From: Clostridiales bacterium
GTDB taxonomy: Bacteria > Bacillota > Clostridia > DUOD01
DNA length: 46,698 nt
Direction: 5' to 3'
Assembly (NCBI GenBank): GCA_012838995.1
Contig: DUOD01000045.1
Location: forward strand, 1 to 46,698
The stretch's first letter is position 1; each line of letters begins with the position of its first letter. Under the pieces are notes generated by a model. It saw only the letters and a list, made by a program, of their open reading frames with translations. It was not told the DNA's origin and did not search any database. This document shows positions 38,063 through 46,698 of this stretch, one piece after another. The translations under genes and the position numbers were made by a program.

Positions 38063-39325
38063 TCAGGGGAAAATACCTCTTATTTTTTTGGCTTTAATTA
38101 CCCTGTCCAGGGCCACCATATAGGCAGCCATCCTTAAGGTAACCTTTTCCCGTTGATGCATGGACCATACTCCGTCAAAGGCCTCGATCATTACTCTTTC
38201 CAGCATGGAATTTATTTTTTCTTCATCCCACATAAACATCTGGTTGTTTTGTACCCATTCGAAATAAGAAACAACAACCCCACCGGCGTTTGCCAGTATG
38301 TCGGGCACTACCGGTATATTCCTTTCATTTAATATTTTATCTCCTTCCGTAGTAGTCGGCCCGTTTGCCGCTTCTACCACGACCTTGGCCTTAAGTTCCC
38401 GTGCTATTTCAGCATCTATCTGGTTCTCCAGGGCCGAGGGTATTAATACATCAACGTCCATGGTAAGGAGTTGCTTATTGGTAATGGTAGATATGCCCTC
38501 TTCGGTATATCCCTTTATTAAACAATTGGGAGAATCAGCCTTGTATTCCAAAACCCTGTCTATATCTATCCCATCAGGGTTGTACAACCCGCAGGATACG
38601 TCACTTATGGCCACTATCTTACAGCCCTTGTCCTTTAAAAGTTTGGCTGCAACGCTGCCGACGTTGCCAAAGCCCTGCACGGCTATTTTTAAGCCCTTAA
38701 GATCCCAGCCCAGCCTTTTGGCGAGCTCAACAACCGTAAACATTACACCCCGGCCGGTAGCCTCGGGTCTACCCAGAGACCCACCTACCTCCAAAGGTTT
38801 ACCGGTTACAACGCCGGGTACAGCATAACCCTTGAACATACTGTAAGTATCCATTATCCATCCCATAACCTGGGCATTGGTATTAACATCCGGTGCCGGG
38901 ATATCTTTTTCAGGTCCCAGTATCGGAAGGATCATAGAAGTATACCTTCTGGTCAGCCTTTCCAGCTCTCCTAAACTGAGCTGTGTAGGATCTACCTGTA
39001 TACCACCCTTTGCACCGCCATAGGGTATATTCACCACTGCACATTTCCAGGTCATCCAGGCAGCCAAAGCCCTGACCTCATCAAGGTCAACGTCTTGGTG
39101 ATACCTTATACCGCCTTTACAGGGACCTCTAGAACTGGAATGTTGTACCCTATAACCTTTAAAAACCTTTACGGAACCGTCGTCCATTTTAACGGGTACG
39201 GATACGATTAATTCCCTTTCCGGATACCTTAAGGATATATATTCATCCAGTGAATATCCCAGTTTTTGTGCTGCAGCGTCCAAGTTACAAAGCATATTTT
39301 CATAAGGATTGCATTTTTCTGCCAT
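38063..39325 (-). CDS. Glutamate dehydrogenase (Glu/Leu/Phe/Val dehydrogenase family)
   Basis: The 420-residue enzyme interconverts glutamate with 2-oxoglutarate and ammonia, probably NAD-linked and catabolic as in other clostridia (inference). The substrate motif GPCKGGIRYH, the catalytic NIPYGGAKGG with Lys, PAPDVNT, and the Rossmann GFGNVG are all present. GGGGGGG lies 9 bases before the ATG. It forms a single-gene unit with a strong terminator. The family also contains leucine and phenylalanine dehydrogenases, but length and the PAPDVNTN region fit glutamate dehydrogenase. Confidence 0.94.
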   Translation of the reverse strand: MAEKCNPYENMLCNLDAAAQKLGYSLDEYISLRYPERELIVSVPVKMDDGSVKVFKGYRVQHSSSRGPCKGGIRYHQDVDLDEVRALAAWMTWKCAVVNIPYGGAKGGIQVDPTQLSLGELERLTRRYTSMILPILGPEKDIPAPDVNTNAQVMGWIMDTYSMFKGYAVPGVVTGKPLEVGGSLGRPEATGRGVMFTVVELAKRLGWDLKGLKIAVQGFGNVGSVAAKLLKDKGCKIVAISDVSCGLYNPDGIDIDRVLEYKADSPNCLIKGYTEEGISTITNKQLLTMDVDVLIPSALENQIDAEIARELKAKVVVEAANGPTTTEGDKILNERNIPVVPDILANAGGVVVSYFEWVQNNQMFMWDEEKINSMLERVMIEAFDGVWSMHQREKVTLRMAAYMVALDRVIKAKKIRGIFP

Positions 39326-39644
39326 GTAATTAACCCCCCCTAGAACTTTAAAATTTTCAACCTTATTTGATACTTAAATACATCTTATAATATCGCGACT
39401 GTTGGACGTAAAAATATAAGCCAAGCATCTTTGTATTTAGTGTTTTCGGGATATCGGACACACTTTTACATTTACAAGGACTGCACCCATATTTTACTAA
39501 TTATATCAGAAAAAATACCCCCGCTATCATCATTTAGTCGTATTCTAAAATACTCAACCAAATTTGTCAATATACCTGTGCAAGTTTTTTTCAGCAAGTT
39601 TGCAAATTGCTCATATAAAAAAATATCCCTATATACACAAAAAA

Positions 39645-39938
39645 GGACGCTGTCCCTGAGTAAACCTCTCTTTAGCAGCATCCTTTCATTCCAAACCAAC
39701 GACTATACAATGTAAGAAAATGCAAAATCGTATACGCCCGTGCGTCAAATGGACTATTGGATATCATCTTAGATAATCTTATACACAGCCTGTCCAAATC
39801 CAAATACATTGGAAATACAAATTCCCATTGAGTTTGTCCTTCGTCAACGCTGTATGCCAATTCCCTTCTTATTTTCCCACGCCTGTTTACGGCCGAATTG
39901 CTGCCTATTACTATACCATAGTTGTGCCGTATTAACAA
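39645..39938 (-). pseudogene. Doubtful 88-codon frame, possible gene remnant
   Basis: In the 1.1-kb gap between glutamate dehydrogenase and the integrase the minus strand has a frame from a TTG at 39938 to 39672 with protein-like composition (RRGKIRRELAYSVDEGQTQW, MYLDLDRLCIRLSKMISNSP), followed by a short GGAC/GTCC hairpin with TTTTTTG. It has no good ribosome site. I do not recognise the family. The rest of 39326-40247 is AT-rich with no gene I can support. Confidence 0.25.
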
Positions 39939-40247
39939 ACCTTAAATGGGGTTCAAAAGACCCAAGGTTTAAAGCTCTTTACCCACACAAGAAAAAGCTC
40001 AATAGAATAACGAAATTAGACGGTTTTTCTTGTATTTGCTTTAAAATAAAGTTCAAAAAATCTGTTTAAGAGAAATTTATCTTCTCATAAATAATTAAAC
40101 AGAGTGGCTGGGCGATTACTTATATGGAAGTATAACCGCTTTGATATCCAAGAAATAAAATACATAGAAAAAATTTTGGATTAATAACTTTGTTAGTTAT
40201 GTGTTAGTTACGACCAAAAAATCGAGCAAATTCCGATAATATTGCCC

Positions 40248-40284
40248 AAAAAATAAAATCCCGCTAATACTTGGTATTAGTGGG
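40248..40284 (-). terminator. Terminator of the interrupted tRNA-Arg
   Basis: CCCGCTAATAC (40260-40270) and GTATTAGTGGG (40274-40284) form an 11-bp stem followed on the minus strand by ATTTTATTTTTTG. It is the original downstream terminator of the tRNA-Arg whose 3' half lies at 40292-40335. Confidence 0.8.
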
Positions 40285-40291
40285 CTTAAAA

Positions 40292-40335
40292 TGGTGCGCC
40301 CGAAGGGATTCGAACCCCTGGCCTTCTGATTCGAA
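40292..40335 (-). other. Attachment site: 3' half of a tRNA-Arg gene
   Basis: The minus strand reads TTCGAATCAGAAGGCC, GGGGTTCGAATCCC and CGGGCGCACCA: the anticodon loop, variable, T arm and acceptor 3' side of a tRNA-Arg (anticodon probably UCG). The 5' half is missing; sequence at 40336 onward is unrelated, and the integrase gene starts about 125 bp further. This marks the junction of an integrative element that cut the tRNA near the anticodon loop. The intact copy should lie at the other end, outside the window. Confidence 0.85.
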
Positions 40336-40458
40336 TTTTATGATACTGAAATAAACTAAAACCTACTGAAACATAGTAATATCAAGGCTTTTCAATCTAA
40401 AAAATACTAAAAGAAACTGACATAAACTGAAACAATAATGATAAATTAATGATAAAAA

Positions 40459-41604
40459 TTAATTAAACATATCCGCCAATAATTCGGCCTCCTGCTTTCT
40501 GAAATCTTTTGTCACGTGTGCATATATCTCTGTAGTTTTAGTAGTTGTATGCCCCAAGAGTCGAGAAACTGCTACCAAACTTGCTCCTTTTTCCAACAAT
40601 TTAGTAGCGTAAGTATGCCGTAGGCAATGAAAACTCTTATATTCTATACCAGCTTTTTCAAGTGCTTTTTTATATACTCTTCTGAAATTTTTCGGGTTAA
40701 TATAAGTCCCCATAATACTTGGAAACAACAGGTCATTTTTTTGATAAGCCGATCCCATCTTTAGTTGCTGTTCTTTTTTTATCCTTTTTATCATTTTTAG
40801 ATACGGCATAAAAGTTGTTGGAATTGGAACTTCTCTCATAGAGTTCTTGCTTTTTGGAGTTTGTACTCTATTTTCATAATTCCATTCCGTAGGAGATTTG
40901 AATACTTTTACTTCTGCCAGGCTTTTGTTGACGTTTACTACCCCATTTTTTATATCTTCTTCCGTCAAAGCCAGTATTTCACCCAGTCGTAAGCCTGTGG
41001 CCAGAGCAAACAAGATTATATATTTTACCTGGGATTCATCCATTTGTTTTATTTTTTCTATCTCTTCATCGGAGAAAGTTTTGATTTTTCTTTCTTTATC
41101 TTCGCTCTTAATCTTGACTCGATTGCATGGATTTTTTGCTAGATAACCTTCCTGTACTGCATAATTAAAGAATTTTTTTAATAACTTGTTTAAATTCTTA
41201 ATCTGTGATGGGGTTTTTCCGCCTTGAATTAATTTATTATAATAGCGTTGTATAGTAGACATTTTAAAGTCTGAAACTTTTATGTTGCCTATTTCTGAAC
41301 CTTTTACATAATTTCTATATATCTCCTCATATCGTACGAAAGAATTTGTTTTTAGGGAAAGCTTCTCGATCTCCCAAAGCCAAAAGTGCATGGCTGTTTC
41401 TAATATTTGTGTTTTCAAGTCTGGATTAATACCTGCCTCTATATTTTTGATATATTCTTGTTTTTTCTTTTCAGCTTCTGCCTTTGTTTTTCCGTAAAAT
41501 TTTTTTTGTATCTGTTTACCGCTGGCATCTTTACCAATGGTTAGTGTCGTCTGATAGTATTTATATTTTCCTATTGTTACGTTTGTTTTTGGAGTTTTTG
41601 ACAA
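40459..41604 (-). CDS. Tyrosine recombinase (integrase)
   Basis: The 381-residue enzyme follows the Tn916/phage integrase plan: an N-terminal three-stranded arm-binding domain (YYQTTLTIGKDASGKQIQKK), a SAM-like core-binding domain (about 65-165) and the catalytic domain with Arg in ATGLRLGEIL, HCLRHTYAT (His and Arg), LGHTTTKTTEIYAHV (His and nucleophile Tyr). It would insert and remove the element at the tRNA-Arg site. It points toward the attachment site, and AGGAGG precedes its ATG. The 180-bp gap to the divergent Xis-like gene probably holds both promoters. Confidence 0.96.
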   Translation of the reverse strand: MSKTPKTNVTIGKYKYYQTTLTIGKDASGKQIQKKFYGKTKAEAEKKKQEYIKNIEAGINPDLKTQILETAMHFWLWEIEKLSLKTNSFVRYEEIYRNYVKGSEIGNIKVSDFKMSTIQRYYNKLIQGGKTPSQIKNLNKLLKKFFNYAVQEGYLAKNPCNRVKIKSEDKERKIKTFSDEEIEKIKQMDESQVKYIILFALATGLRLGEILALTEEDIKNGVVNVNKSLAEVKVFKSPTEWNYENRVQTPKSKNSMREVPIPTTFMPYLKMIKRIKKEQQLKMGSAYQKNDLLFPSIMGTYINPKNFRRVYKKALEKAGIEYKSFHCLRHTYATKLLEKGASLVAVSRLLGHTTTKTTEIYAHVTKDFRKQEAELLADMFN

Positions 41605-41786
41605 ATAAACACCTCCTTTATATATAAAATGCTATAAATTTACTATAATGAATTTTCTACCAAAATGCAAATTTCACCGAAATTTTTTTTAAAAAAACTT
41701 GATTTTTATAATTATCTTTTTCTAACCTAGTATCCAACAGGATCTAACGGTTTAATTTAGATTAAAAAGGGGGTTTTCAAATCAAT

Positions 41787-41972
41787 ATGAAATTATTGAT
41801 GAGTGTTCGTGAGGCAGCAGAAGCCTTTGGAATAGGCCGAGATAAACTATATCAAATGGTAAATAATGATCCGACCCTTCCAACTATAAAGGTAGGAGAT
41901 CGAATCAAAATAAATACTGACTTGTTTCGAGAATGGCTTAATGAAAAGACAAAAAATAAAGAAGCTATTTGA
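41787..41972 (+). CDS. Excisionase-like helix-turn-helix protein
   Basis: A 61-residue protein with a MerR/Xis-type winged helix: MSVREAAEAFGIGRDKLYQM, then TIKVGDRIKINTDLFREWLN, the arrangement of the excisionase-family DNA-binding domain. It is divergent from the integrase with a GGGGG site about 14 bases before the first ATG (or at better distance for the second ATG at 41799). A role in choosing excision or in repressing the integrase is inferred from position and family. Confidence 0.85.
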   Translation: MKLLMSVREAAEAFGIGRDKLYQMVNNDPTLPTIKVGDRIKINTDLFREWLNEKTKNKEAI

Positions 41973-42056
41973 TGTAAAAAGTGCTACCCAAAAATGTAGG
42001 ATTTTATCCCTTTGAAATATTCAATTCAAGCGATCATTACTCAAGTCTCGCATCAA

Positions 42057-42090
42057 GGAAACAGTTAGCTCAACTGAGCTAACTGTTTCC
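42057..42090. terminator. Perfect 16-bp hairpin after the Xis-like gene
   Basis: GGAAACAGTTAGCTCA (42057-42072) is followed after two bases by its exact complement (42075-42090). A TTTTT run occurs 9 bases later on the plus strand. It may be a terminator, or a double-strand-like origin structure ahead of the Rep gene. The gap 41973-42296 otherwise has no gene. Confidence 0.6.
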
Positions 42091-42296
42091 GTAGTTATCT
42101 TTTTAATTTAATAATCCTTTTAAAAATACTTTTTCGAGTTGTCATCTCCTTACATAGCAAAAAGCAAGGGGTTTTCGAACAGTCTCTTTTTTTCAAGGAG
42201 TCTATTAATTGCCTGTTAATAGGCTAACAAATCTATCTTTATAAAGTCAATTTAAGTTTCAAGGCCCCTGCTCAAGCAATGTAAGGAGTGATAAAC

Positions 42297-42401
42297 ATGA
42301 ACATCTATTTGTTCCTTAACTTGATTATATTACTTAACTCTATTGTCCCGCACGAGCTATCAATAGCATTTTGGATAAAATGTGGTGATAGCCGTGTCTA
42401 A
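42297..42401 (+). CDS. Possible 34-residue leader peptide overlapping rep
   Basis: ATG 42297 has AAGGAG 9 bases upstream, the best ribosome site in this region. The frame encodes MNIYLFLNLIILLNSIVPHE and ends at TAA 42399-42401, overlapping the first codons of the Rep-helicase gene, which lacks a good site of its own. Translational coupling through this hydrophobic peptide is likely, or it may be a small membrane peptide. Confidence 0.45.
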   Translation: MNIYLFLNLIILLNSIVPHELSIAFWIKCGDSRV

Positions 42402-44985
42402 TTGTTTTAAATCAGTTAGAATCTTAAAAAATGAACGTACAGGTACATTTTTTGCTAAAGCTGTTACCTGTGGTAGTTTAGGTTGTCCTTATTGCCGAGA
42501 GCAGATTAAGGATACACTTACTACTAAAATACTTTATGCCGTTAATAAATATAATCTAAAACATTTTTTTACCCTAACTACCTCCATGGGTATTGATGAA
42601 CTTAATGAAGACTTTGAAACTTTGCGTAAAAAAATGGATAACTTCAAAAAGTCCAATTTTATAGCAAAAATGCGGGGTTCCCAGTCAGAGCGAGAAGAAA
42701 AGTATAAAGCAAAGGTTCATGAAATGGTGGAGTTTGAAATTAAAACCATGTTTTATATAGCTTTTATCAAAGAGGAAGCTATTGCTTTGGCACGCAAACA
42801 AGGAGTAATATATATGGATTTAGATAGTGGTGAAAATACCTTTTATACAAGCAAAAATGACTTTATAAGTAAGAATTACAACGAACTAATATCTGCTATC
42901 GAAAAACGGTTGGAATCGTTCAAAAATGGTTCTGTTATACCTTTTACGCCAATTATCAAAGGTAAACAAGTAGTTTTCAGAAGTTATGGAGAGTTGTATA
43001 AATACTGTTATGATAAGGTAACACAAAACGATGATGAAAAATTTAGTTATATCCGTATTTTAGAAGTAGCAGGGAAACCACACTACCATATTTTATGCAA
43101 TAGATATATATGCCATTATATTATAGGAACACTATTCAGAAAGGATAAAAAAACACCCCCAAAAGTTGGACAATCAGATAAAATATATCTAAATGTCGAC
43201 TTGCAGGAATTTACAGATTTTGAAACAGAAATACAAGCCCAGGAAGCAGTAACTAAATATGTGACGATGTATATTACAAAAGAACTCTATGATGGGGTTG
43301 AACAACTTAAATCCACATATAAGGGTAAAAAACGTATAGATATTATAAAATCCAGCCAAAACATAGACGTTGCTCTAAATACAAAGTTTAACTATGGTGA
43401 TGAGGAAAAGGATAAGTACATTTATATCGATACATTTGACAAAGTACCTCGCTGTACATGGGAAGAAATTGTAGGGGCAACAGATTATAGAGGTTATCAA
43501 AAATACCTTGATGGTTTGCAAAACCCCGAGGACTACCAGGAAAATCCCTTTATATTGGCTATTAGGGCAGGTTATAAAGATTATTGTGATAAAGTTGCTG
43601 CCCTCAGGCAGCAACTTCAAATTAACAAGCGTAACTCCAATATAGAGGATTGGCCTTCATTACTCATAAAATACAAAGAAGAAAAAAGAGAGTTAGATGA
43701 TGCGTTTAAACGCCAAAAAAGCTATTTAGAAACGGCTTGTCTAAAAAATGCTTTAAACAAAAAATTAAGCAAACTAGGTATTTCAATTAAGGTAAGCATA
43801 AAATATTTAGCAGAATTAGAAACTTATTTAATTGAAAGAAAGGGTTTTAACGAGACTGAAAAGTCAGAGTATTTAAAAACACAAGAAAATTTTGTGCAAG
43901 ATTTACAGGATCCAAACAAGAAAATAATATTTTTACTCGGGGGTGCTGGCAGTGGAAAAACAACTACGATAGCTAATATTTATACCAATTTAAGTGGGAG
44001 TTACAAAACAGAGTTCTGCGCTTTATCTGCAAAAGCTGCGACTGTTCTTTCTAGCAAGGGTTTGGACGGTAAAACTATCCACAGGCTATGTAAGGCAAGA
44101 TACTCTCTATTGTCGGATTTTATGGCGAATGAGAATAACCCTCTTGATGTCGATATTCTATTTATAGATGAGATAAGTATGGTGACAAAATTTGATTTCG
44201 CTTTATTGTTAAACGCCCTACCAGACCACGCAAAAATAATATGCAGTGGGGACGACAACCAGCTCAATGCTGTTGGTAGCAATAGTATTATCTACGAGTT
44301 TCGACTATTGAAGCATAAAGCTATATCTTTTCATTTCCTAAATCTGAACTTTAGATCCGATGATAGAATAACCCTAATTGCCAACGAAGTGAGGAACGGG
44401 AATCTTACGAGCTTGGACTTTAAAAAATTCGACATGGAAAAAATATACGAGAGAATAAATCAGGGCTATCAGGTTATAACTAATGGACGAAGCATCGCAG
44501 AAAAAATAAATTTATACGCTAGTCGGAATAATACAGATATAGTTTGTACAGCCTTTTATAATTATAGCAGGGCTCAAGAAGTTATGATCCTTCGTAACGA
44601 CCCAAAAAATGGTGTTTTTAACGGGAATATATGCAAAATTATTGGGATCACAGAAACGAAAAAAAGTCCCAGAATTATCCTTGAGAAATCAAATGGAGAG
44701 CAGTTTTTCTACTCTCTTCCCCAAAGTGCTACACATTTTGTTCCGTCTTACGCTTTTACGGTGCATAAAAGTCAAGGGAGCGAATTCGATAAAGTCGTTA
44801 TTGTATTAGATAATAAAAGTATGCTTTTAAATAGAAATATGCTTTATACAGCGATTACAAGAGCCAAATATGATTTTGAAATCTATGTGTGTGATGGGGT
44901 TGATATAAACCTTTTAAAAGAAAAACAAGAAAATGATGATCCATATACATTACTTGATATTATTGAAACTGAATCAAAAAAATAA
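42382..44985 (+). CDS. HUH endonuclease-SF1 helicase fusion (Rep-helicase)
   Basis: The 867-residue single chain begins with a Cys-rich part (CGSLGCPYC, Cys30/35/38), then a rolling-circle HUH nuclease: a first strand HFFTLTTS (61-68), metal motif PHYHIL (His234/His236) and two candidate nucleophile tyrosines in TKYVTMYITK (Tyr293, Tyr297). After a helical linker comes an SF1 RecD/Pif1-like helicase: Walker A GGAGSGKT (520-527), LFIDE (593-597), GDDNQLNA (623-630), TVHKSQGSEF (793-802) and YTAITRAK (822-829). It should nick, attach to and unwind element DNA. GTG 42382 is used here; GTG 42394 is possible. The Y2-HUH plus helicase order is that of eukaryotic Helitrons. Confidence 0.9.
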   Translation: MVIAVSNCFKSVRILKNERTGTFFAKAVTCGSLGCPYCREQIKDTLTTKILYAVNKYNLKHFFTLTTSMGIDELNEDFETLRKKMDNFKKSNFIAKMRGSQSEREEKYKAKVHEMVEFEIKTMFYIAFIKEEAIALARKQGVIYMDLDSGENTFYTSKNDFISKNYNELISAIEKRLESFKNGSVIPFTPIIKGKQVVFRSYGELYKYCYDKVTQNDDEKFSYIRILEVAGKPHYHILCNRYICHYIIGTLFRKDKKTPPKVGQSDKIYLNVDLQEFTDFETEIQAQEAVTKYVTMYITKELYDGVEQLKSTYKGKKRIDIIKSSQNIDVALNTKFNYGDEEKDKYIYIDTFDKVPRCTWEEIVGATDYRGYQKYLDGLQNPEDYQENPFILAIRAGYKDYCDKVAALRQQLQINKRNSNIEDWPSLLIKYKEEKRELDDAFKRQKSYLETACLKNALNKKLSKLGISIKVSIKYLAELETYLIERKGFNETEKSEYLKTQENFVQDLQDPNKKIIFLLGGAGSGKTTTIANIYTNLSGSYKTEFCALSAKAATVLSSKGLDGKTIHRLCKARYSLLSDFMANENNPLDVDILFIDEISMVTKFDFALLLNALPDHAKIICSGDDNQLNAVGSNSIIYEFRLLKHKAISFHFLNLNFRSDDRITLIANEVRNGNLTSLDFKKFDMEKIYERINQGYQVITNGRSIAEKINLYASRNNTDIVCTAFYNYSRAQEVMILRNDPKNGVFNGNICKIIGITETKKSPRIILEKSNGEQFFYSLPQSATHFVPSYAFTVHKSQGSEFDKVVIVLDNKSMLLNRNMLYTAITRAKYDFEIYVCDGVDINLLKEKQENDDPYTLLDIIETESKK

Positions 44986-45097
44986 AGAACCATTTGTTTT
45001 ATCTATGCAAAACAAATAATTTCTGATATAATAATTTTGGCTTTGATAGATAATCCTTAATATGAATTTTTAATTAAATAGCTATAAATTTGTTTTG

Positions 45098-45129
45098 AAG
45101 CGATTTGTGGAATTTTCCACGAATCGCTT
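45098..45129. repeat. Near-perfect 15-bp inverted repeat after rep
   Basis: AAGCGATTTGTGGAA (45098-45112) and TTCCACGAATCGCTT (45115-45129) pair apart from one position. It overlaps the open frame of the next gene upstream of its likely start. It could be a terminator, operator or a ParB-type binding site for the next product. Confidence 0.6.
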
Positions 45130-45200
45130 TCGGCGTTTATATGGGGGTAATTCAAATTTTACCGTGTCATTCAGAAAAGTTTAGTTATTTCATTAGATTA

Positions 45201-46121
45201 ATGAAGGAGGTGATTAATATAAGCAACGAGAAACTAATTGCCTACATAGATGGTTCATATTACAATTGTAAGGGAGGATGGAGTTGTGTTTCTTTTCATA
45301 ACTACGGGTTATTTCCGAAGATAGAGATATTTGGGAGCTGCCAATCTTTTGACAGTGGGCAAATGGAGGTATTGGCATGTATTAAAGCCATTGCAAACAT
45401 GCCAAGATTATATGGTTTATCTTCTATACCATGTCCAATTGAATTTAGGACCGATTATTATTTTCTTGTAAATTTCATTAATGGTTATAATCACGGTGTC
45501 TCTTTTAAAAAGCTATTAAGATTTAGCCCACGAAATCTTAATGCGGAATTTATGGAGTTGTACAAATTATTACAAGTCTCAAAACACAAGATAAAAGCTA
45601 AAAAAGTGAATAGTAAAGATAGTTGGTTAAAGAAAGTGGACAGGCATGCAAAGTATGCACTACATGCACTTTCTGAAGATAATTCATTTGTATTCTGTAT
45701 AAAGGGAGATGGTAGTTTAGAAAAGATACCTGACGCCCACAAAAACATGCCATTAGAGCCCCGGTACAGCTCCAAGCAACACAATAAAGTAAAATGGATT
45801 AAACCATTTATGCTTGAAGAATTAGTACATATTCCTACGGAGCTTATCCAGATTACAGAGGATATACACCTTCATGCAAAACGCATTGATTTTAGGGGTG
45901 GACTTAAACGATATAAACATAAGGGACATATAGATATTCCTATTGTCGTACGTCCATTACCTAATGGTACATACTCTTTGGTGGTAGGGATTAGTAGGCT
46001 ATGTATTGCTAAATTACTTGGTTTTAAAGAGATCCCAGCTTTTATATCAGATATGACGCATAAAGAATTTATGCAGAAATACGGTGAAGACAGTTACTTG
46101 ATAGCTCAAAAAATAACTTGA
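45201..46121 (+). CDS. RNase HI-like / ParB-like domain fusion
   Basis: About 306 residues from the ATG at 45201 (numbers below count from the frame opening at 45105, 338 residues). Residues 42-190 follow RNase HI: AYIDGSY (Asp49), GQMEVLACIKAI (Glu88), RTDYYFLVNFI (Asp117), KVDRHAKYAL (Asp179), so all four catalytic acids are present. Residues 264-314 look like a ParB/Srx domain: IPIVVRPLPNGTYSLVVG, then SRLCIAKLLGFKEIPAFI. The start is odd: AAGGAGG fits best an AUA codon at 45219; the ATG at 45201 abuts it. It sits just after the Rep-helicase, suggesting RNA-DNA hybrid or primer removal in replication, or partition. The function is not known. Confidence 0.75.
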   Translation: MKEVINISNEKLIAYIDGSYYNCKGGWSCVSFHNYGLFPKIEIFGSCQSFDSGQMEVLACIKAIANMPRLYGLSSIPCPIEFRTDYYFLVNFINGYNHGVSFKKLLRFSPRNLNAEFMELYKLLQVSKHKIKAKKVNSKDSWLKKVDRHAKYALHALSEDNSFVFCIKGDGSLEKIPDAHKNMPLEPRYSSKQHNKVKWIKPFMLEELVHIPTELIQITEDIHLHAKRIDFRGGLKRYKHKGHIDIPIVVRPLPNGTYSLVVGISRLCIAKLLGFKEIPAFISDMTHKEFMQKYGEDSYLIAQKIT

Positions 46122-46193
46122 ATTTCGGTTTTATCTCTCTCCATAATCAAATTAAAGCATATTTAAATTTAAGAAAAAGAAGGGGGTTTTGGA

Positions 46194-46523
46194 GTGGAGT
46201 GTGTAATAAAGGACAATAAGGAAATTATAGACAAAGAAGAAGAAATAATTCTTCCGGTTGCGAAGTCAACACCACCAAGCTCATTAAAGGTGGCGGCAGT
46301 GAATTATCTAAAAACTTATAAAGCCGTTCATCTCGATTGCATAGGGGTAGCAGCAAATTATATTGCTACAAAAGCCATAATAATGATCCGGGCTCATTTA
46401 TTTACAACAGGAGATGAACTTATATATGTTCCAATTTATAAAGACTTTAAATTAGAAGGGACGGAAAATAAAATTAAAACTGGCATCAGATGGACATTAA
46501 CACTCTACAAGAGAAGCATTTAA
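46194..46523 (+). CDS. SpoVS-like (Alba-type) protein
   Basis: The 109-residue protein matches stage V sporulation protein S along most of its length: ILPVAKSTPPSSLKVAAVNY (SpoVS has VSAKSSPNSVAGA), CIGVAANYIATKAIIMIRAH and ELIYVPIYKDFKLEGTENKI. The N-terminal 20 residues are an acidic Lys/Glu extension. SpoVS is an Alba-like fold that binds DNA or RNA and acts in spore formation; finding a divergent copy on a mobile element suggests a role in element replication or in host development. A GTG start with GGGGG and GGAG upstream is used. A hairpin terminator overlaps the stop. Confidence 0.8.
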   Translation: MECVIKDNKEIIDKEEEIILPVAKSTPPSSLKVAAVNYLKTYKAVHLDCIGVAANYIATKAIIMIRAHLFTTGDELIYVPIYKDFKLEGTENKIKTGIRWTLTLYKRSI

Positions 46524-46534
46524 ATGCTTCTCTT
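46509..46534 (+). terminator. Hairpin at the end of the SpoVS-like gene
   Basis: A palindromic AAGAGAAGCATTT/AAATGCTTCTCTT spans 46509-46534 and includes the stop codon; CTACA follows, so termination may be weak. Confidence 0.55.
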
Positions 46535-46611
46535 CTACATACCTCCCATATTATCCTTCAAGCATATAAAGGAAAAATTAATTTAAATATAAAAATTAGG
46601 AGAAAACAAAA

Positions 46612-46698
46612 ATGGAATATTCAGAATTTTGCCAAGAAATAGAAACATGTATAGAAAAAATGTCCAACTATCTTGAGAAAGCTTACGATGCTCATAGA
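46612..46698 (+). CDS. Start of a gene cut by the window edge
   Basis: ATG 46612 with AGGAG 10 bases upstream opens a frame that stays open for 29 codons to the end (MEYSEFCQEIETCIEKMSNY and further Leu/Glu/Lys). It looks helical. Nothing can be said of its function. Confidence 0.6.
   Translation, partial: MEYSEFCQEIETCIEKMSNYLEKAYDAHR

Follow-up and report, generated by a model that had tools for sequence, protein, structure and literature searches.

What a protein that joins a nuclease and a helicase in a single chain does for the bacterial element carrying it is the question raised by the window analysed here, the whole 46,698-nucleotide contig (C27) of a Clostridiales genome. Bacterial rolling-circle initiators have been described as borrowing an SF1 helicase from their host, and the long open reading frame near the end of the window, referred to here as RepHel, was likened in a preliminary description to the Helitrons of eukaryotes. 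The evidence points to RepHel being, quite probably, the protein that initiates replication of an element integrated in a tRNA gene, namely a rolling-circle Rep equipped with its own RecD2-like 5′–3′ helicase. On this reading it is a Rep that carries its helicase with it and resembles Helitrons in layout.

The window ends at position 46698, inside the element, of which the following parts were identified, in order from the attachment site.

40292..40333, minus strand: attachment site, whose 42 bp repeat exactly the 3′ end of an intact tRNA-Arg(ACG), C13:13117-13158 (sequence match)
40459..41604, minus strand: tyrosine integrase (domain match)
41787..41972, plus strand: excisionase-like HTH protein (HTH_17, Tn916-Xis; domain match)
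42382..44985, plus strand: RepHel, fused HUH nuclease and SF1B RecD2-like helicase (start at GTG 42382 or GTG 42394)
45105..46121, plus strand: RNase H-like and ParB_N protein, downstream gene of the element (domain match)
46194..46523, plus strand: SpoVS-family protein encoded on the element (domain match)

The 42-bp copy starts within the anticodon of the tRNA and runs through CCA; the intact gene occupies C13:13082-13158. The tyrosine integrase adjoins this duplicated tRNA 3′ end, the arrangement of a tRNA-integrated element; the bacterial integrative element proposed at the outset is thereby confirmed. The orientation of the attachment site and of the tRNA places the rest of the element on contig C13, from 13159 to the contig end, where its far end carries a Bpu10I-type restriction enzyme, two further ORFs, an N6/N4 methyltransferase and a short ORF; the part from the Bpu10I-type enzyme to the methyltransferase corresponds to L036:3617-6946. 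At least 10.6 kb of the element are seen on the two contigs, without its middle, and no relaxase, oriT or conjugation gene was found in them. The protein encoded at 45105-46121 combines an RNase H-like domain, in which an Asp/Glu/Asp pattern is visible, with a ParB N-terminal domain, an unusual pair beside an initiator, and could serve primer removal or partition.

The RepHel frame is intact and encodes 867 residues from a GTG start, the true start possibly being the second GTG at 42394, which would shorten the protein by four residues. Its recognizable parts are as follows.

42403..42498, plus strand: Cys-rich N-terminal segment, Cys8/30/35/38 (Cys8/30/35 invariant in six homologues)
42565..42579, plus strand: HUH motif I, FFTLT, residues 62-66 (motif position, six-homologue alignment)
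43081..43089, plus strand: HUH motif II, His234-Tyr-His236 (alignment; PF23343 match over residues 212-301)
43258..43281, plus strand: HUH motif III, YVTMYITK, with Tyr293, Tyr297 and Lys300 (alignment)
43939..44868, plus strand: SF1 helicase motifs, from Walker A (520) to motif VI (829) (profiles, motif positions)

The computed positions of motifs I (62), II (234) and III (293-300) follow the Rep order, the first two separated by a long insertion, and are succeeded by the helicase motifs GGAGSGKT (Walker A) at 520, DEIS at 596, GDDNQL at 623, FRS at 657, TVHKSQGSE at 793 and YTAITRAK at 822, so that the overall plan is HUH–insertion–helicase. These positions agree with those first read from the sequence (HYH at 234, YVTMYITK at 293, helicase motifs at 520-829), as do the Cys-rich start and the motif order unlike that of MobF proteins, the order being I-II-III with the tyrosine not N-terminal. 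Motif I, which FFTLT fits, went unnamed in the preliminary description. The union of an HUH nuclease and an SF1 helicase in a single chain likewise stands, on motif positions, profiles and conservation in homologues.

At least five relatives besides the window protein, all in Bacillota, are full fusions that keep the HUH–insertion–helicase plan. They include those of Desulfosporosinus acididurans M1 (57% identical to the window protein), of plasmid pA38H1 from Sporosarcina ANT_H38 (WP_149582784.1; 31%, full-length with HUH and helicase), and of the genomes G1250 (25%), G1141 (22%) and G1078 (20%). In the alignment of the six sequences (the window protein and five homologues, 20-57% overall identity), Cys8, Cys30, Cys35, the FxTxT motif, the HxH motif (His234 and His236), Tyr297 and Lys300 are invariant (6/6). 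The fusion is no product of chance, since the five homologues keep the core residues and viral RecD/Dda-like helicases lack an HUH domain: none was detected by profile in 155 ORFs of that kind, 39 of which have at least 200 residues before Walker A. Tyr293 is present in five of the six proteins, being absent from G1250, and its distance from Tyr297 is four residues in the window and Desulfosporosinus proteins and seven in those of Sporosarcina and of a more divergent lineage (lineage B). The two tyrosines reported four apart are therefore real in the window, but such a pair is not a strict property of the family. Spacings of four and seven would both leave the two tyrosines on one face of a helix, and the conservation pattern suggests Tyr297 as the main nucleophile. 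The Cys-rich N-terminal segment is likely to bind zinc, judging from its conserved cysteines.

The only replication-type family in Pfam matched by the nuclease half is REP_ORF2-G2P (PF23343), with 21.9 bits for the window protein, under the curated cut-off of 27.8 bits, 28.4 bits, above it, for the Sporosarcina homologue, and 27.0 and 22.9 bits for the lineage B proteins. Profile–profile comparison with the HUH-only Reps of integrative elements in genomes G469 and G742 gave 92.7% probability over the HUH motif, and that with other PF23343 proteins a weaker match of 62% spanning motifs II-III. The HUH motif followed by a YxxK motif III in the Rep order, a feature of REP_ORF2-G2P, is found in all six RepHel proteins. 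By family profile, motif order and motif III, the RepHel nuclease probably belongs with the REP_ORF2-G2P kind of Rep-type HUH nucleases; the REP_ORF2-G2P proteins examined (frames of 250-480 residues) are without helicase, whereas RepHel adds a RecD2-like helicase and the long insertion between motifs I and II. A PDB profile search of the nuclease half returned CRESS Rep matches only, all non-significant. AlphaFold predictions for residues 1-370 and for the complete chain, with one homologue, were of low confidence (mean pLDDT 45.5 and 37.3) and for this reason the active site was deduced from conservation.

The helicase half scores best with RecD2 among NCBIfam models (185 bits, under the equivalog cut-off of 500 bits of TIGR01448), followed by RecD (154 bits) and TraA (71 bits). 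A three-sequence profile searched against the PDB matched RecD (4e-30), RecD2 (4e-25), Dda (1e-13) and Pif1 (about 2e-12). The Pfam PIF1 model did not match the window protein up to E=1; it matched the Sporosarcina homologue with 35 bits and, in the relatives, returned mostly RecD2 proteins, for which reason the helicase tree holds no Pif1 outgroup. In that tree the helicases of the window, Desulfosporosinus, Sporosarcina and the Acetobacter plasmid record pGR7 form one group (99/97), separate from 19 RecD2 proteins and from TraA/MobF; when lineage B is added, all RepHel helicases fall on one side of a branch, weakly (86/65). Judged from these scores, the PIF1 results and the tree, the RepHel helicase is a RecD2-like SF1B enzyme on a branch of its own and not a Helitron Hel domain; RecD2 and RecD, not Pif1, are its best-matching families. 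RepHel thus shares its helicase core with RecD2, from which it differs in its separate branch and in the replacement of the RecD2 N-terminal part by a nuclease.

The pGR7 record (2446 bp) encodes a helicase 61% identical to that of the Sporosarcina RepHel, without the nuclease; since it nests within the RepHel group, it has probably lost the nuclease or arisen as a deletion derivative, and an orthologous helicase without the HUH part indicates that the halves can separate. Its N-terminus resembles a ribbon-helix-helix fragment, joined where the nuclease would end.

RepHel proteins are rare, occurring in one of 391 genomes of the window's class, two of 399 of the phylum (where two further matches are HUH-only Reps), two of 380 of the class of G412 and one of 72,556 plasmids, and in none of 50,697 phage records; scans of viral contigs gave nothing by pattern with the nuclease half and only RecD/Dda helicases without HUH with the helicase half. 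The single plasmid, pA38H1, is a complete circular 6.1-kb free plasmid, typed non-mobilizable and without a transfer gene, among whose ORFs none but the RepHel homologue is an evident initiator; the protein is labelled 'AAA family ATPase' and is not annotated as an initiator in PLSDB. The homologue differs from the window protein in its residence on a free plasmid and in its tyrosine spacing (seven versus four). The G1141 element has the order of the window, with tRNAs, an integrase (minus strand) and RepHel (plus strand). Two 6.6-kb stretches of this genome (L226 3677-10306 and L227 4182-10811), each carrying tRNA-Lys/Leu/Pro, integrase and a RepHel of lineage B, lie on two contigs and are 99.985% identical. 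On its contig, the Desulfosporosinus RepHel is accompanied by type I restriction genes and a tRNA cluster, and the G742 element comprises an integrase, a repressor, an HTH protein, a Rep with HUH only and a gene resembling type I methyltransferases; such islands thus often bear restriction cargo next to a Rep. A helicase-less counterpart of the window element is found at L030:588-9533, where an integrative element next to tRNA-Arg carries a type I methyltransferase-like gene and, as initiator, an HUH-only REP_ORF2-G2P protein.

The combination of a nuclease with a RecD-like 5′–3′ helicase in one chain is also the plan of the MobF relaxases (TraI, TrwC, TraA), and RepHel could accordingly be thought of mainly as a relaxase that mobilizes the element by nicking at an oriT and unwinding the strand to be transferred, MobF-like in action only. 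FtsK-like and SSB-like genes near the G1078 and G1250 copies would allow a transfer role. However, MobF proteins have permuted nuclease motifs with an N-terminal tyrosine, a separate helicase branch and conjugation genes nearby, whereas RepHel has the Rep motif order, a nuclease matching a replication family rather than a Mob family, and a helicase separated from TraA/MobF (99/97), and transfer genes are absent from the stretches of the element that were sequenced and from the non-mobilizable pA38H1, all of which makes a relaxase unlikely. At L234:7538-14533 and L228:4868-12517, RepHel is followed by an SSB-like and an FtsK-like ORF, which suggests a transfer module in those branches.

It is considerably less probable that RepHel is a RecD-type repair or anti-phage helicase with a degenerate, inactive nuclease part at its N-terminus. 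Restriction genes in this element and in the neighbourhood of other copies, as well as the loss of Tyr293 in G1250, would fit such a role, but the core catalytic residues are all kept in six homologues, one copy resides on a minimal plasmid and the viral RecD2 relatives have no HUH domain. Least credible of all is a role as a bacterial counterpart of the Helitron transposases, moving the element by a rolling circle, for the shared part order, Cys-rich N-terminus, two-tyrosine HUH and SF1 helicase are outweighed by an integration accounted for by the tRNA attachment site, the 42-bp repeats and a tyrosine integrase, by a RecD2-like rather than Pif1 helicase, by the lack of a Helitron HUH match and by the homologue on a free plasmid.

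A kinship with Helitrons was not supported: residues 1-357 had no Helitron match in Pfam or PDB profile searches, the Helitron_like_N model included, and the Helraiser structure (7lcc) was matched only weakly by the helicase profile, at its helicase end (E=0.0026, against 4e-30 for RecD). The Helitron comparison holds for layout only, together with a presumed 5′–3′ unwinding coupled to nicking, while Helitrons have a Pif1-type helicase, move by transposition and are unrelated by profile in the nuclease half. The RepHel fusion is probably independent of Helitrons; it seems very improbable that RepHel proteins are living relatives of the prokaryotic RepHel replicon proposed as the Helitron ancestor, its helicase half having later been swapped for a Pif1 type.

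In a 2018 survey, all known prokaryotic Y2 Reps lacked a helicase, and the understanding of Helitron origins was said to await new groups of rolling-circle elements (Heringer and Kuhn, 2018; PMC6213432). Helitrons have been linked to bacterial plasmid clusters by Kazlauskas et al. (PMC6668415), with no Rep–RecD2 fusion described in the parts of that work concerned, and no published bacterial fusion of this kind was found in the literature covered, which leaves out most subscription journals. If the proposed reading is true, HUH and SF1 domains were joined on three or more occasions (in MobF, in Helitrons and in RepHel); alternatively, the type of prokaryotic RepHel that has been invoked to explain how Helitrons arose does exist, in a different form. 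Combining nicking and unwinding in one chain could widen the host range, the coupling of the two activities becomes directly testable on a 6-kb plasmid, and plasmids and islands in which the protein is labelled just 'AAA family ATPase' gain a named initiator.

RecD2-type helicases move 5′–3′ and PcrA moves 3′–5′. As an initiator, RepHel would act once the tyrosine integrase and the Xis-like protein have excised the element as a circle. It would bind an origin that probably lies immediately 5′ of the RepHel gene, nick one strand through Tyr297 and stay on the 5′ end, with Tyr293 probably helping strand transfer or termination. The helicase part, for which the RecD2/RecD family predicts 5′–3′ polarity, would unwind along the displaced strand while the host polymerase extends the 3′ end, independently of PcrA. 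Given the movement of RecD2-type enzymes, the attached helicase is expected to run along the displaced strand, starting at the 5′ end that the nuclease holds; TraI and Helitrons work in this manner, PcrA does not. Between the two outcomes originally envisaged, plasmid-like replication of the excised element is likely because a homologue sits on pA38H1, and rolling-circle transposition found no support.

The region preceding RepHel holds the following features.

42057..42090, no strand assigned: perfect inverted repeat of 16 bp around a 2-nt loop, lying past the xis-like gene and ahead of the RepHel leader
42135..42320, plus strand: structured leader RNA hiding the Shine-Dalgarno of the leader peptide (folding z = -5.8)
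42297..42401, plus strand: leader peptide ORF, 34 residues, strong Shine-Dalgarno, overlapping the RepHel start (ORF reading)
42317..42336, plus strand: candidate double-strand origin/nick region TAACTTGATTATATTACTTA (19/20 conserved in Desulfosporosinus)

The Desulfosporosinus RepHel is likewise preceded by an overlapping leader ORF, with an equally strong fold (z = -5.2), and the leader structure may provide translational control of RepHel and thereby of copy number. No Rfam family reached the gathering score in 39300-46698. The conservation of 19 of 20 positions of TAACTTGATTATATTACTTA in Desulfosporosinus was reached in none of 2000 shuffles; the Sporosarcina counterpart is CTTAACTTG. The block resembles the CTTGATA nick site of the pC194 type and also the phiX174 site, and is a candidate only. 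CTTGATA has been reported as the nick site for pC194-type Rep_1 proteins (PMC10378824). A three-way origin motif, TAACTTG, was rejected, a 7-mer common to all three homologues arising in 45% of shuffles, and for this reason only the 20-mer shared by the window and Desulfosporosinus was kept. The 16-bp inverted repeat upstream of the leader may be either a terminator or an origin hairpin.
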